From positions 90,785 through 154,784 of the forward strand of contig JAAYBR010000143.1 in the NCBI GenBank assembly GCA_012730045.1: DNA of 64,000 nucleotides. Reading direction: 5' to 3'. This DNA comes from Candidatus Hydrogenedentota bacterium. Its GTDB lineage: Bacteria; Hydrogenedentota; Hydrogenedentia; Hydrogenedentales; CAITNO01. A program made the position numbers and the translations under genes. This document shows, one piece after another, positions 32,955 through 39,884 of this stretch; position 1 is the first letter of the stretch, and every line of letters begins with the position of its first letter. Under the pieces are notes generated by a model. That model saw nothing but the letters and a program-made list of their open reading frames with translations, was not told the origin of the DNA and did no database searches.

Positions 32955-33145
32955 CGCGGTTCCTCCTGAAATCGAAACGGGTTTCCGCCCCGCGCCGCGC
33001 TTCCGGCGGACGGCGGAAAGGTTGTCGGGTATAATACCGCTTTCCCGCGCAAACCTCGAATCCCCCATCACACAGGACCCGGGATCAGAGGGAAAGAGGG
33101 CGCCTCTATTTGAAAAAGAGGTCTCAGACCGCAGGCATTCCGACA

Positions 33146-33394
33146 AGAGATTGCCGCGCTTCGCTCGCAATGACTGCGAAAACGCGCGTCATTGCGAACG
33201 TAGTGAAGAGATTGCCGCGTCCGCCGGGGCGTTGGCGGGAACGAGATTGCCGCGCTTCGCTCGCAATGACCGCGGAAATAAACGTCATTACATTGACCGC
33301 AAAAACGCACGTCACCGCAATGACCGTGGAAATAAACGTCGCTGCAATGGCCGCAGGAATACACGTCATTGCGAACGTAGTGAAGCAATCTCGT
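33146..33394. repeat. Cluster of four dispersed repeats, two in each orientation
   Basis: Two copies (33146-33174, 33243-33270) read GATTGCCGCGCTTCGCTCGC then AATGAC. Two copies in the other orientation (33190-33217, 33367-33394) begin CATTGCGAACGTAGTGAAG. Together they make an interrupted inverted-repeat cluster just upstream of the U32 gene. Confidence 0.8.
33263..33370 (+). repeat. 27-bp tandem repeat, 4 units
   Basis: Four contiguous 27-base units (33263, 33290, 33317, 33344) begin GCAATGACCG and end ACGTCATT, differing at a few positions each. A fifth, separate relative begins near 33168. The unit starts inside the dispersed repeat, suggesting it was amplified from it. Confidence 0.8.
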
Positions 33395-33461
33395 GCCCGC
33401 AAGCGCCCCGATTCGCGCCATGTTTTGTCCCGCGACCACCAAGAATTCACGAAAGGCCCTT

Positions 33462-35849
33462 ATGTCCCCGCATACCCCCCCCTGCCCTTCCGGCGGTTCC
33501 CCCAGACCGCCGGAACTGCTCGCGCCCGCCGGGCGCATGGAGGCCTTTCTCGCGGCACTGGACGCCGGAGCGGACGCGGTGTATGTCGGCGCGCACCAGT
33601 TCAACGCCCGGCTGCGCGCGCACAACTTCACGCGGGACGACCTGGCCCGCATGGCGGCGCTGGCGCATGACCTGGGCCGGAAACTGTACATCACCCTGAA
33701 CACGCTGGTGCGGGACGACGAGCTGAATGACGTCGCGGCGCTGCTGGACGACCTGCGGCGCATCGGCCCGGACGCGCTGATCCTCCAGGACCTGGGGGTG
33801 CTGCGCCTGGCCCGGACCCTGTGTCCGGAGATTCCCCTGCACGCCTCCACCCAGATGACCATCCACAACGCCGACGGCGCGCTGGCCGCCCAGAAGATGG
33901 GGTTTGACCGGGTCGTGCTGGCGCGGGAGCTGACGGTGGACGAGATCCGGGCGGTCCGGAACGCCTGCCCGGTGGCTCTGGAGGTGTTCATCCACGGCGC
34001 GCTGTGCTATTCCGTGTCCGGACAGTGCCTCTTCAGCAGCCACGTCCACGGCAAGAGCGCGAACCGGGGCTTGTGCCTCCAGCCCTGCCGGCGCGCCTTC
34101 TTCGACGGCGCGGGGCATAAGGGCAACGCGTATTCCACGCGGGACCTCGACGCCACCGCCGTGCTGGGGCGGCTCGTGGAGGCGGGCGTCACCTCGCTGA
34201 AGATCGAGGGGCGGCTGAAGCCCGCCGAGGCCGTCGCCCAGATTGTCCGCGCCTACCGGCTGCTGCTGGACGCCTGGCCCCGCATCGGCCGGGAGGAGGC
34301 CGCTGAGGCGCGGCGGCTGCTGGATTCCGCCGTGGGCCGGGAATCCTGCACCGGGTACCTCTCCGCGCCGCGTCCCGCGGGGCTGCTCGGCGCCGCCGAG
34401 TCGCAGTCCGGACGCCGCATCGGCACCACGGTGTCCTGCCGCACGCCGGGCCATATCGCGTTCCGGCCCACGGAACCTGTGAGCGCGGGCGACCGCCTGC
34501 GCGTGCAGGCGCGCCCCGGCCAGCCGCCCGTGTCGGTGACGGTGCGGGAACTGCTGCTGGACGGACGCCCCGTCAAGCGGGTGCAGGCGGGGCGGGGGGT
34601 GGAAGTGGCGGTCCCCTGCCCTGTTCCGGCGGGCGTGGCCGTCGTGAAGGCGGCGGACGCCGGGGCGCGGCCCAAGGGCTTCCAGAACCGTCTGGAGAAA
34701 CTTGAGGCCCGCATGGGGCGCGCGGAAAAGGCGCGCTTTCCCGTGCAGGTCCGCACCGGTCAGGGCGGCGTGACGCTGAAGGCGGAGGCCGGCGCGGGGG
34801 TGTTGGTGGAACTGCGGCACCCCTGGACCCGGCGCGGGGAAATCCCGCACGGCGAGGCCCTGGAAATACTGGCCACCGACACGGCATCAGCATCGGTGCG
34901 GCTCGCGCCGGAGGGGTCGGACCCGCCCGCCCCCTTCCTGATGAAGCCGGAGGAACTGGCGGCCTTCCGCGACCGCTTCCTCGCGCGGCTGGAGGCCGCG
35001 CTGAACGAGGCGCGGGACGCGGCGGTGGCCGCCGCTGTGGCCCCCGCTGTGGCCCCCGGCGGCGGGAACCCGGATTCCCGGCCCGTCTGCTGGGTGATTC
35101 TTCCCGCCCTCGAAGGCTTGGCCGTCTTCCGGCAGGCGCTGGCGGAGCGGCCGGGCACGCGCGCCGTCCATTGGATGGCGCCGCTGGCCGCAGTGGACGA
35201 CCCCGCCTTCGCCGCCGCGCTGCGTGCCGTTGCCGCCCCGGACAGGGTCGGGGTGGTTCTGCCGCACCTCGTGTTTGACCCGAAGGCGCTGGCGGAGGCC
35301 CACGCGCGCCTGCGCAAAGCCGCGCAGCTCGGGGTGCAGACCGTCGCGGCGTCCAACCCGGCCGGGTTCCAGATGCTCTCCCGGCTGGGCAAACGCCGCC
35401 TGGAGACCCTGGTCCTGCCGTCCATCGGGTGCATGAACCGGGCCTGCCTCGCCCAGTTGTCCGCCTTGGGCGCGAATGCCGCCGCCTGTTCCCTGGAGGC
35501 GGACGCGGAGACCCTGGAAGCCCTCCTTTCGGCGAAGGGCGGGATCCGCGCCGCCGTCGTGCGCCATGCCCACGTGCCCCTGTTCCAGTCCCGCGCCCCC
35601 GGTCCCGTGGTGCCCTCCGGCACCCTCCGCCTCGAGGAGCCCCCCGTGGACGTGCGCGTGGAACGCCGGGGAGACCTCACGGTGACCCTCTCCCCAAGGG
35701 TGTTCGCGCATGCTGTCGCGGACCCGTCCGCGGACTGGGTATACGACTTCACCTGGGCGCAGGAAAGCCCCGACACCCTCGCGGCCATCCTAACCGAAGA
35801 CAGGACCCGCCTCGAAGGCAACCACGGCACCCCCAACAGCACCGGATAA
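33462..35849 (+). CDS. Large peptidase U32-family protein (RlhA-like)
   Basis: The start at 33462 follows GAAAGG; frames extending upstream run through repeats. The 795-residue product has the U32 barrel (PELLAPAGRMEAFLAALDAGADAVYVG), the region LHASTQMTIHN, and the signature EVFIHGALCYSVSGQCLFSS. Cysteines C182, C189, C205 and C209 probably belong to an iron-sulfur site. Members of this size include RlhA, which hydroxylates a 23S rRNA cytidine; TrhP and UbiU are relatives. True peptidase activity is doubtful. The last nine residues (NHGTPNSTG) are repeated in a downstream duplicated copy. Confidence 0.8.
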   Translation: MSPHTPPCPSGGSPRPPELLAPAGRMEAFLAALDAGADAVYVGAHQFNARLRAHNFTRDDLARMAALAHDLGRKLYITLNTLVRDDELNDVAALLDDLRRIGPDALILQDLGVLRLARTLCPEIPLHASTQMTIHNADGALAAQKMGFDRVVLARELTVDEIRAVRNACPVALEVFIHGALCYSVSGQCLFSSHVHGKSANRGLCLQPCRRAFFDGAGHKGNAYSTRDLDATAVLGRLVEAGVTSLKIEGRLKPAEAVAQIVRAYRLLLDAWPRIGREEAAEARRLLDSAVGRESCTGYLSAPRPAGLLGAAESQSGRRIGTTVSCRTPGHIAFRPTEPVSAGDRLRVQARPGQPPVSVTVRELLLDGRPVKRVQAGRGVEVAVPCPVPAGVAVVKAADAGARPKGFQNRLEKLEARMGRAEKARFPVQVRTGQGGVTLKAEAGAGVLVELRHPWTRRGEIPHGEALEILATDTASASVRLAPEGSDPPAPFLMKPEELAAFRDRFLARLEAALNEARDAAVAAAVAPAVAPGGGNPDSRPVCWVILPALEGLAVFRQALAERPGTRAVHWMAPLAAVDDPAFAAALRAVAAPDRVGVVLPHLVFDPKALAEAHARLRKAAQLGVQTVAASNPAGFQMLSRLGKRRLETLVLPSIGCMNRACLAQLSALGANAAACSLEADAETLEALLSAKGGIRAAVVRHAHVPLFQSRAPGPVVPSGTLRLEEPPVDVRVERRGDLTVTLSPRVFAHAVADPSADWVYDFTWAQESPDTLAAILTEDRTRLEGNHGTPNSTG

Positions 35850-35938
35850 CCATCCCGGCAGCACCCCGGACACACCGCATTCCCTCCCGTGTCACAGAGC
35901 GCGAAGCGCCTTGGAGTGCGGCAGCTTGCTGACGCCGT
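35811..35938 (+). repeat. Direct repeat R1, copy 1
   Basis: From the CTCGAAGGC inside the last U32 codons to the hairpin repeat, this stretch matches 36516-36644 at about nine bases in ten. Confidence 0.85.
35900..35938 (+). repeat. Hairpin (REP-like) repeat, copy c
   Basis: Reads GCGCGAAGCGCC then TTGGAGTGCGGCAGCTTGC; the right arm of the central hairpin has one change (TGACGCC for TGCCGCC). Confidence 0.8.
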
Positions 35939-35998
35939 TCAGACCGGACATCACGACGGCTTCCTGCGGATGAACGCCCTTGCGGCATGGAAGACAAG

Positions 35999-36171
35999 AC
36001 TCAACGCAGAGACGCAGAGAACGCCGAGAGGGAGGGAGAATGGGAAACGTGTTTCCAACCCGGAAGCACATGCAGAATGCCCGTGATGTGGCCGGTGAAA
36101 ACCTCAGAAGATCGTGGGCAGGATGCCTTTGCTGTTACTCTTCATCTCCGCGTTCTCTGCGTCTCTGAGTT
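35999..36171. repeat. Inverted repeat with 22-24 base arms
   Basis: Left arm 35999-36024 (ACTCAACGCAGAGACGCAG then AGAACGC) is the inverse of the right arm 36150-36171 (GCGTTCTCTGCGTCTCTGAG then TT). The 125 bases between have no gene. It lies between hairpin copies c and d and looks like a small non-autonomous element. Confidence 0.7.
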
Positions 36172-36245
36172 AAAGGGGCCCTCATCTCCTAAGGACTGTG
36201 GCCCGAGTGGAGAGAGGAGGTTAGCTCCTGTCGCGTGTCCGTCCA

Positions 36246-36314
36246 CGCGTGGGCAAGCCCACGCGAAGAAAGGCGGCAGCAAGCTACCGCACTCCAAGGC
36301 GCGCTTCGCGCGCG
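36246..36314 (-). repeat. Hairpin (REP-like) repeat, copy d (inverted)
   Basis: Three successive hairpins can be drawn: CGCGTGGGC-AA-GCCCACGCG, then GCGGCAGC-AA-GCTACCGC, then GCGCG-CTT-CGCGC. It is oriented opposite to copy c. Confidence 0.8.
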
Positions 36315-36524
36315 ATCCCCGCCCTCTGCCCTCTCGTTCTTGCTTCTCCGCGCCGCTGTGCCTCCGTGTGAGTCCCCTCTTCCGCTCTTCCGGCCGGAAC
36401 CCTTTTCCCTGATGCGCGATTAACGGTACCATTCCGTTACTTCTTCCCGAAACCACAGGTGCCTTTATCCGTGCTCCGCTCCGTGCGTCCCCAGTCCTCC
36501 ATCAGCGACCGCGAACTCGAAGGC
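36260..36524 (+). repeat. Direct repeat R2, copy 1
   Basis: This stretch matches 38086-38399 with small gaps. It includes the hairpin repeat, the segment CCGCTGTGCCTCCGTGTGAG, GGCCGGAACCCTTTTCCCTG and ATGCGCGATTAACGGTACC, and the first 22 codons of the MFS transporter. Confidence 0.85.
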
Positions 36525-36554
36525 GACCACGGCACCCCCAACAGCACCGGATAA
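36459..36554 (+). pseudogene. Fused remnant: MFS N-terminus joined to U32 C-terminus
   Basis: From a GTG at 36459, 22 codons match the start of the MFS transporter gene at 38334 (shared SSISDRELEG). At CTCGAAGGC the frame passes directly into the last codons of the U32 gene (HGTPNSTG, stop TAA). The fusion is in frame and only 31 codons long. It marks the junction of a tandem duplication and is not a functional gene. Confidence 0.8.
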
Positions 36555-36644
36555 CCACTCCGGCAACGCCCCGTACACACCGCATTCCCCCCCCGTGCCA
36601 CAGAGCGCGAAGCGCCTTGGAGTGCGGCAGCTTGCTGCCGCCTT
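36516..36644 (+). repeat. Direct repeat R1, copy 2
   Basis: Second copy of 35811-35938, beginning at the CTCGAAGGC junction and ending in a hairpin repeat. Confidence 0.85.
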
Positions 36645-36674
36645 CCCCCCGCGCGGGCCTGCCCGCGCAGCGCG
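36604..36674 (+). repeat. Hairpin (REP-like) repeat, copy e
   Basis: Carries all three hairpins of the family: GCGC-GAA-GCGC, the GCGGCAGC/GCTGCCGC core, and CGCGCGGGC-CT-GCCCGCGCG. It faces copy f across the low-GC gene. Confidence 0.8.
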
Positions 36675-36966
36675 TCCTCCAGACCCCAGACCTCCGACGG
36701 ACTCCCCCCTGGGATCGCCAGGCTCCAGCCTGGCACCGCGCGCCCATGCGCGCGCCCGCTCTTATTCCTCCAGACTCCCGGCTACAGACTCCGGACTCAT
36801 CCCTCCTATTGACACCGCACACCCTTTCGGCTATTATTTCCCCATGCTCAGAAGTGCGACAGAAACCTAACGCCCCTAAGACCCAAACGATGGGCCGTGC
36901 CCCCCCCGCGGGCTGCCTATCGTCACGCCATTAGAGTCGTCAACCGTGGCGAAGGAGTGTTTATCG

Positions 36967-37791
36967 ATGAATGTCCGATGTCGTATGAGGGTGCTATTTG
37001 TTGGTGTGATAGTTGTTCTTGGAGCGTTTTCCAGCGCCGCGCTGGATAGAGAGTCGCTCTATCAAACAAATTGCGATGACTTCTTGAGGACTATTCGCGA
37101 AGCACTACCTATAGAAGATGCTCTAGAAAAGGAGTTGCGGATCGGAAAGGTCCTTGATTACATGGATGGAATTACCGGAATCGACGGTTGTGCCGACGAA
37201 CTGTGCAAAATAGCTTCAGAAACAGAACATCTTCGCTTGAAACTTGTGTTCTATATGTATTTATGTACATCGGGAAGAATACTTTACAGTCAATATGGGT
37301 GCGGTATCGTTCGCAGGGCAGTTGATGTCTTTCTTTATCCAGAGAAATGCGGCGATGCTGTTGACTCAGTAACAACAACTGTGGCAGTGATAGTGTTAAG
37401 AAAAGTGTTTCGCATGTGCAAGTATAGTGTGCGCCCTATCATTATGTATAGGCTTGTGCGCAACACTGATGTCAAGGACAGGCGAGAGAGCTACTTTCGG
37501 GAATTAGGTAACTATCTGCAAGAAATGAGTGACAGCGAGGTGTTTCATATTTGTTCTCTTCATGGCGAAGACGCCCAGTTTAGGAAAGCTACGGCCTGTG
37601 ATCCCATAAGGGAGCGATTCGCAACTATAAAATCAGGAAAATATGTTTTTCAGAGCAGAGAGGACCTTCTGTGCGCCTTGCAGAGGGAAATCGAAGGGCT
37701 CGTCACAGAGTTTAATGAACATTATCAAGACAAAGAGGTTCAGCCGTTCGCAGGCACATGGGGAGGAAGAGCGCTTCCCCCTGGTTTGTAG
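36967..37791 (+). CDS. Low-GC orphan gene, predicted secreted or membrane-anchored protein
   Basis: The ATG at 36967 has GAAGGAG 9 bases upstream; a GTG at 36946 is a weaker alternative. The 274-residue product begins with a basic then hydrophobic leader (MNVRCRMRVLFVGVIVVLG, cleavage likely near SSAALD). The rest is mostly helical, with nine or so scattered cysteines and no motif I recognise. Third codon positions are A/T-rich, unlike every other gene in the window, which suggests recent acquisition. It lies inside duplication unit 2 between oppositely oriented hairpin repeats e and f. Confidence 0.65.
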   Translation: MNVRCRMRVLFVGVIVVLGAFSSAALDRESLYQTNCDDFLRTIREALPIEDALEKELRIGKVLDYMDGITGIDGCADELCKIASETEHLRLKLVFYMYLCTSGRILYSQYGCGIVRRAVDVFLYPEKCGDAVDSVTTTVAVIVLRKVFRMCKYSVRPIIMYRLVRNTDVKDRRESYFRELGNYLQEMSDSEVFHICSLHGEDAQFRKATACDPIRERFATIKSGKYVFQSREDLLCALQREIEGLVTEFNEHYQDKEVQPFAGTWGGRALPPGL

Positions 37792-38333
37792 CCGTGAATT
37801 TCGATATGAGGCCCCCCTGTCTGTACGCATGTCCGTGTCCAATGCTCGCATGATGTGGTCCTCAGGATTCGGCTGTCGTCGCCTGTTTCCAGCCCCAGTC
37901 AAATTATCCGGATGCCCATCTGCCGAATTGGAGACTTTCTTCTCCGAGTGGGTTCTCGGGCGGTGTTCTTCTGGTGGCGGGGTTCACGCCGGAGTGGGCG
38001 CTGGTGCTGGAGGATCCGGGAATTGCTGCCGTACCGGAATCGCGTCTACGTTTGTGTTCTTCAGGCAGCCCCGCGCGGGCGAGCCCGCGCGAAGAAAGGC
38101 GGCAGCAAGCTACCGCACTCCAAGGCGCGCTTCGCGCGCGATCTGCGGTTTCCTCCGTCATTGTGTTGCTGCGGCGCGCTTCGCGCGCGTTCCCCGCCCC
38201 CTGCCCTCTCGTTCTCCCCTCTCCGCGCCGCTGTGCCTCCGTGTGAGTCCCCTCTTTCGCTCTTCCGGCCGGAACCCTTTTCCCTGATGCGCGATTAACG
38301 GTACCATTCCGTCACTTCTTCGTGTAACCACAG
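37792..38333. other. Gene-free region before the MFS gene
   Basis: The first 250 bases are mixed in composition and hold no credible gene, possibly decayed cargo of the inserted segment. From about 38071 on it is hairpin copy f and direct repeat R2 copy 2. Confidence 0.6.
38071..38140 (-). repeat. Hairpin (REP-like) repeat, copy f (inverted)
   Basis: CGCGCGGGC-GA-GCCCGCGCG, then the GCGGCAGC/GCTACCGC core, then GCGCGC-TTC-GCGCGC. It faces copy e. Confidence 0.8.
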
Positions 38334-38399
38334 GTGCCTTTTCCCGTGTTTCGTTCCGTGCCCCCCCAGTCCTCCATCAGCGACCGTGAACTCGAAGGC
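38086..38399 (+). repeat. Direct repeat R2, copy 2
   Basis: Second copy of 36260-36524, here running into the intact MFS gene. It has a roughly 50-base insertion (about 38141-38190) relative to copy 1. Confidence 0.8.
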
Positions 38400-39884
38400 G
38401 GCATGCGCGCCCTCGTGCTGGACGGGGTGTTTATCCAGTCGCACACGGTGCTGACGACGGGGGCGTTCCTGATCGGGTTTGCGCTGGCGCTGGGGGCGAG
38501 CAACAGCGTGATCGGGGTGCTGGCGGCGCTGGGGCCGCTGGCACTGGCGTTTCAGATCCCGGCGGTGTACCTCGTGCAGCGGCTGCGGTGGCGGAAATGC
38601 ATCGTCCTCGTCGCGGCCACGCTCAGCCGGAGCATGTGGCTGGTGATGGCGGCGATCCCCTTCGTGCTGGAGCGGCGGCTCCAGATCCCGGTGTTCCTCG
38701 GCGCGCTGATGGTCCACTACACCCTGGGGAACATCGGCGGGTGCGCGTTCAACTCGTGGATCCGGGACCTGATCCCCCAGCGCCGCCTGGGCGAGTTTTT
38801 CTCGCGTCGGATGACCCTGGCGACGGCGGCGGGCGCGCTGGTCAGCCTGGGGGCGGGGTTTGGCGTGGACGCGTGGAAGCTCCACCTGCCGGGGGCGCCG
38901 GGCGGCGCGGCGGGCGCGTATGTCGCCGTGTTCCTGCTGGCCATGGTGTTCGGCATGCTGAGCGTGCACCAGCTTTTCCGGGCGCCGGAGCCGGTGATGC
39001 CGACGGGGGCGGACGAGCCCTTCCTCCGGACCCTGCGCCAGCCCCTGCGCGACCGGAATTTCCGGCAGGTGCTGATCTTTCTGGGGGCGTGGAACTTCGC
39101 CCTCAACTTCGCGGCGCCCTTCTTCGCCGTCTACCTCCTCCAGCGGCTGGGGATGGACATGTCCTGGGTCATCGGCCTGACGGTCCTGAGCCAGGCGGTG
39201 AATGTGCTGTTCTTCCGGTTCTGGGGGCGGCTGGCGGACCGGTTCTCGCACAAGGCAGTGCTGGCGGTGTCGGCACCGCTCTTCATCTTCTCGTTCCTGC
39301 TGTGGCCCTTCACCACGATGCCGGAGCAGTACTTTCTCACCATCCCCCTGCTGCTGGTCATTCACATCCTGGCGGGGATCGGCACGGCGGGGGTGAACCT
39401 CTGCACCGGGAATCTCGCCCTGCGGCTCGCGCCCTACGGCAAGGCGGGGGCCTATCTGGCGGTGAACTCCCTGGTGTCCGGGCTGGCGGCGGCGGTCTCC
39501 CCGGTCATCGCGGGGTTCAGCGCCGACTGGTTTGACTCACAGCAGCTTGTGCTGACCCTGCACTACGCCTCCGCAGGGCCCGAGGGCGCGGATTTCGTCA
39601 TGCCCGCCCTGGACCTGCGCGGGCTGGACTTCCTCTTCTTCATCGCGTTCTTCCTGGGGCTGTACGCCATGCACCGGCTGGTGACGGTGCGCGAGGAGGG
39701 CGAGGTGAAGGAGGCGGACGTGCGTCGCGCGCTGCTGGACGAGATGGGCCGCGCGGTGCGCCAGGTGTCCACGGTGGCGGGGGTGCGCCAGATGATCATG
39801 GCCCCCTTCACGCTGTTCCGCCCCGCGCCCGCCCCCGCGCCGGAGGATCAGCCTTCCGGCAACGGCGACGCGAACACGTCGTAG
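38334..39884 (+). CDS. Major facilitator superfamily transporter
   Basis: The 516-residue product has about 12 hydrophobic spans and the loop pattern of MFS permeases (FFRFWGRLADRFSHKAVL between TM8 and TM9). GTG at 38334 is used; GTG at 38346 or ATG at 38403 are alternatives, and the upstream portion also occurs in the duplicated copy. The C-terminal tail (about 70 residues) is cytoplasmic and charged. Substrate unknown. Its 3' end overlaps the convergent rimO gene by 37 bases. Confidence 0.8.
   Translation: MPFPVFRSVPPQSSISDRELEGGMRALVLDGVFIQSHTVLTTGAFLIGFALALGASNSVIGVLAALGPLALAFQIPAVYLVQRLRWRKCIVLVAATLSRSMWLVMAAIPFVLERRLQIPVFLGALMVHYTLGNIGGCAFNSWIRDLIPQRRLGEFFSRRMTLATAAGALVSLGAGFGVDAWKLHLPGAPGGAAGAYVAVFLLAMVFGMLSVHQLFRAPEPVMPTGADEPFLRTLRQPLRDRNFRQVLIFLGAWNFALNFAAPFFAVYLLQRLGMDMSWVIGLTVLSQAVNVLFFRFWGRLADRFSHKAVLAVSAPLFIFSFLLWPFTTMPEQYFLTIPLLLVIHILAGIGTAGVNLCTGNLALRLAPYGKAGAYLAVNSLVSGLAAAVSPVIAGFSADWFDSQQLVLTLHYASAGPEGADFVMPALDLRGLDFLFFIAFFLGLYAMHRLVTVREEGEVKEADVRRALLDEMGRAVRQVSTVAGVRQMIMAPFTLFRPAPAPAPEDQPSGNGDANTS

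Follow-up and report, generated by a model that had tools for sequence, protein, structure and literature searches.

The interval between two plus-strand genes of a Candidatus Hydrogenedentota genome, one for a U32 family peptidase (33393-35849; Pfam PF01136, E = 1.3e-67) and one for an MFS transporter (38346-39884; Pfam PF07690), contains repeated copies of both gene ends, which raises the question of whether it was duplicated in tandem, assembled from mobile repeats, or misassembled. We addressed this within a 64-kb stretch of DNA (64,000 bases, hereafter the window). A word search of the window agreed with the first-pass annotation in placing the 9-base sequence CTCGAAGGC on the plus strand at 35811, 36516, and 38391. 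The first copy (A, 35811-35819) is located within the U32 tail, while the last (C, 38391-38399) consists of native MFS codons (LEG of ELEGG, which is EVEGG in the further relative G002). These delimit two plus-strand units of the lengths originally given, 705 bases (unit 1, 35811-36515) and 1875 bases (unit 2, 36516-38390), with the last U32 codons, LEGNHGTPNSTG, forming the left end of unit 1. Both flanking genes are real and were left intact by the duplication. Just upstream of the U32 gene (33100-33450), ORFs extend over repeats that read as IASEARQS/RFARND-type peptides, a repeat-derived spacer.

Alignment of 35811-36515 with 36516-38390 illustrates that both units start with the U32 tail and end with the MFS start, as had been claimed. 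Unit 1 comprises the U32 tail, an inverted-repeat arm, a 300-base middle, a second repeat arm, and the MFS upstream region and head; unit 2 has the same two ends around a different middle of 1.4 kb. Positions 35811-35936 matched 36516-36642 at 92% identity, and 36298-36525 matched 38173-38400 without gaps, also at 92%. Homology is therefore limited to about 355-400 bases per unit, and the middles (35941-36242 and 36643-38068) are unrelated. Some of this homologous sequence belongs to dispersed repeats with dozens of other copies, which could have inserted independently, and hence we take proof of duplication solely from 35811-35882 and 36395-36525. The former, part of the U32 tail, recurs at 36516-36588, differing at 6 of its first 71 bases. 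The latter, comprising the MFS upstream region, a Shine-Dalgarno site (AGGTG), and the MFS head, recurs at 38270-38400, with 12 differences over 121 bases. These values fit the earlier estimate of about one difference in ten bases. Within the 4.46 Mb genome, both blocks exist only as these two copies (90%-92% identity). The locus thus holds two directly repeated copies side by side, with ends that are unique to it, and because these ends are gene ends in head-to-tail order, they indicate a tandem duplication. Mutations are unevenly spread between the copies, with 55 invariant bases in a row in the MFS upstream region (36383-36437), a sample that would be too small for a claim of selection.

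The middle copy of the 9-base sequence (B, 36516-36524, plus strand) marks the duplication junction, which reads CGCGAA, then CTCGAAGGC, then GACCACGG. Sequence leading into 36516 matches what precedes the MFS copy, and sequence leaving it matches what follows the U32 copy. For two sites drawn at random from this window, the probability of 9 or more matching bases is 1.5e-4. The window contains four further occurrences of the same sequence (35109 and 49719 on the plus strand, 48399 and 54193 on the minus strand), giving 7 in total versus 1.19 expected, so the word itself is favored in the GC-rich coding DNA of the window, and the weight of the match as evidence is somewhat reduced. The junction evidence is nonetheless independent of the word alone, as the flanks match copies C and A too. 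Immediately after the 9-mer, copies B and C have G (36525 and 38400) and copy A has A (35820), which suggests that the crossover occurred one base further on or that this base was changed by later mutation.

The MFS head is joined in frame to the U32 tail at 36516, as was also proposed, producing the reading VPLSVLRSVRPQSSISDRELEG/DHGTPNSTG, followed by a stop codon, when read from 36459. This putative mini-ORF (36459-36554, plus strand) has 31 codons, or 27 if started at GTG 36471. Comparison with the N-termini of relative G002, whose MFS homologue fits a start at GTG 38346, suggests that GTG 36471 in the mini-ORF and GTG 38346 in the MFS gene, each 9 bases past AGGTG, are the likelier starts. 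The end of one unit is therefore joined to the start of the next at an exact 9-base match, the arrangement of a microhomology-mediated tandem duplication, and a single such event with its junction in the match, as first suggested, is the best-supported reading. We also considered the 9-mer as the target-site duplication of a transposon and rejected this, since the supposed element consists of gene ends that are unique to the locus, rather than an element found with its ends at other sites.

Tandem duplications with short junctions are a kind of mutation already known in bacteria, and the locus is a well-preserved example rather than a new system. For example, a 9-bp GC-rich microhomology has served as the border of a tandem duplication in Escherichia coli using the TDAH method (PMC11111574). 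In a Salmonella study, junctions at 7 and 9 bp of microhomology went unconfirmed, in contrast to several longer ones (PMC3411829), which counts against a 9-base match as the junction here. The duplications in both studies share with this locus a direct head-to-tail copy, a short exact match at the junction, and a unit end fused to a unit beginning, with possible promoter capture. They differ in that the laboratory duplications are recent with identical copies, whereas here the copies are old (8%-10% divergence), intergenic sequence makes up nearly the whole unit, and the cargo of one copy is different.

Dispersed repeats mark the points where the units cease to be homologous and where homology returns. 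A palindromic repeat of 70-85 bases forms the left (35899-35940, minus strand) and right (36231-36316, plus strand) arms in unit 1, as well as those in unit 2 (36605-36668, minus strand; 38069-38142, plus strand), with homology to unit 1 resuming at the last of these. This repeat is present at at least 59 places in the genome (36231-36316 and 58 others), a lower bound, as are all repeat counts here, from the stretches of genome read. Copies often occur as inverted pairs 45-80 bases apart, and many assembly contigs end in one. In a scan of 84,980 species genomes, the metagenome-assembled genome (MAG) of the sister species was the only one with the exact 33-base core of the repeat. Together with two or three further repeat families, the palindromic repeat makes up much of the interval. 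These families include a second to the left of a low-GC gene in unit 2 (36675-36806) and a third to its right (37971-38042), the latter also present on contigs C44, C95, and C138. Two different dispersed repeats lie about 230-250 bases apart at three loci (37971-38042 with 38219-38266; L146:3149-3437; L147:2270-2547), and this constant spacing may perhaps reflect one larger composite repeat. An Rfam search of the U32-MFS interval gave no match. The palindromic repeat resembles REP/BIME/REPIN-type repeats in being short, intergenic, present in many copies, and often arranged in inverted pairs. It differs from them in its absence from the flanks read around four of five Y1_Tnp (RAYT-type) genes, leaving a RAYT link unsupported. 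Other intergenic tandem duplications (91%-94% identical) were found beside copies of the palindromic repeat at L103:7855-8462, L090:1-352, and L087:1416-1939 (contigs C88, C43, and C8), which indicates that the process is recurrent in this genome. The repeat itself is part of the setting and not the thing duplicated.

To place the duplication in time, we compared this genome (G000) with the sister species (G001, Hydrogenedentota MAG USPA_maxbin.121). The U32 genes differ at 59 of 400 fourfold sites (14.8%), versus about 8%-10% between the locus-specific blocks of the two copies. Hence, the duplication probably took place after the two species had separated, provided that the spacer evolves neutrally, while the divergence between copies supports the earlier statement that the event was not recent. 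The sister U32 lacks the tail from LEG on (LEGNHGTPNSTG) and ends in TLAATAANEYRA before its stop codon. It is followed directly, where unit 1 stands in G000, by a minus-strand gene (L041:1990-2910) with weak matches to NucS/YhcG nuclease domains. Beyond this nuclease-like gene, the sister contig contains sequence like 36185-36242 and then ends in the palindromic repeat at the equivalent of 36314. The next matching sister contig starts at the equivalent of 43662, and the MFS side lies outside both. In G002, RimO-MFS followed by LysR, purM, and purL (named from translations) takes the place of U32, and more distant genomes also have MFS neighbors that differ from those in G000. In other family members, U32 and MFS either occupy separate contigs or share one, oriented toward each other and no more than a few kb apart. 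A scan of genome contigs with MFS as the query found no relative.

The middle of unit 2 carries an orphan gene (36967-37791, plus strand; 274 amino acids) with AAGGAG before its ATG, an N-terminal signal-like stretch, and a GC content of 45.6%, compared to 69%-73% in neighboring genes. A promoter-like site lies ahead of it on the same strand (TTGACA-17-TATTAT, 36809-36837; 11/12, by consensus match only). Searches of Pfam and NCBIfam families returned nothing significant, and no homologue was detected in 68 genomes of the class or in the plasmids, phages, and viral contigs searched. The AlphaFold model was unusable (mean pLDDT 43.8). Next to the right repeat arm, on its inner side, the sister sequence is matched at 41 of 58 positions by unit 1 (36185-36242), versus 17 of 58 for unit 2 and 32 of 58 for the best of 300 shuffles, which makes it more likely that the unit 2 middle is a replacement than the original. 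Its ends coincide with a dispersed repeat, and this middle, with its orphan 46% GC gene, accordingly looks like a replacement by sequence comparison. Since the change in sequence coincides with repeat arms on both sides, recombination at the repeats would be the simplest route. The first-pass annotation had cargo gained or lost after duplication; the later change of cargo stands, and the comparison narrows it to an apparent replacement in unit 2.

Taken together, it is very probable that the U32-MFS interval was tandem-duplicated at the 9-base match after the split from the sister species, that the copies diverged, and that the bracketed middle was later exchanged or enlarged. The stretch from the last U32 codons to the first MFS codons would have been duplicated head to tail by illegitimate exchange at CTCGAAGGC, between the U32 tail and MFS codons 16-18 (counted from GTG 38346), possibly via replication slippage or end-joining at short homology. 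In this way, the duplicated MFS upstream region and head would have been fused to the duplicated U32 tail, leaving the in-frame remnant of 27-31 codons, after which the copies drifted apart to about 90%-92% identity. Palindromic repeats already in the interval would have bracketed the middle, which was presumably swapped or enlarged later by recombination at the repeats, and unit 2 now carries an orphan AT-rich gene preceded by a promoter-like site of its own. The duplication is most likely a neutral relic, whose presence can be explained without giving it a function.

One alternative, which we consider doubtful, is promoter capture, with the duplication retained for supplying the newly acquired low-GC ORF with an upstream copy of the MFS promoter. 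The MFS upstream copy, with its long invariant run and Shine-Dalgarno site, does lie about 400-500 bases upstream of this ORF on the same strand, and promoter capture by transferred genes through microhomology-based tandem duplication has been described (PMC11111574). However, the ORF comes with a strong promoter-like site (36809-36837) and a Shine-Dalgarno site of its own, palindromic repeats intervene, the duplicated MFS upstream block has no promoter-like match, and the cargo seems later than the duplication and so cannot have been its driver. Another alternative, to which we also give little credence, is that the U32-MFS interval is a cassette site in which recombination at the inverted repeat arms exchanges the stretch they enclose, with the tandem duplication having doubled the site and let new cargo enter without loss of the old. 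The cargo of the interval is a NucS/YhcG-like nuclease gene in the sister and the orphan AT-rich gene in unit 2.

An assembly artefact, in which two strain variants of the interval from a metagenome were joined head to tail although the organism has a single copy, is quite improbable. The genome is MAG-like (155 contigs), many of its contigs end in the palindromic repeat, and a divergence of 8%-10% could equal that between strains. Nonetheless, usual metagenome assemblers work with a word length above 9 bases, and the 9-base match is too short for graph joins. In addition, 36317-36604 is contiguous, free of the palindromic repeat, and carries diverged copies of both ends, while the window contains no N and no second such structure within its 64 kb, and the stated contamination is 0.05%. 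Judged from the assembled sequence alone, a simple artefact is therefore unlikely. Lastly, while dispersed repeat sequence forms a substantial part of the interval, it is scarcely credible that independently mobile repeats inserted side by side built both units, as the unit-defining ends are non-repeat gene ends in the right order that occur nowhere else in the genome.

Tandem duplication at the 9-base match thus remains the preferred reading. The locus preserves, in an uncultured phylum, the traces of a short-junction duplication whose two ends, joining point, and subsequent divergence can all still be read. Such events leave in-frame fusions of gene ends and short remnant ORFs, and annotation may mistake these remnants for genes. 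The locus also illustrates the uptake of foreign genes by repeat-rich spacers.
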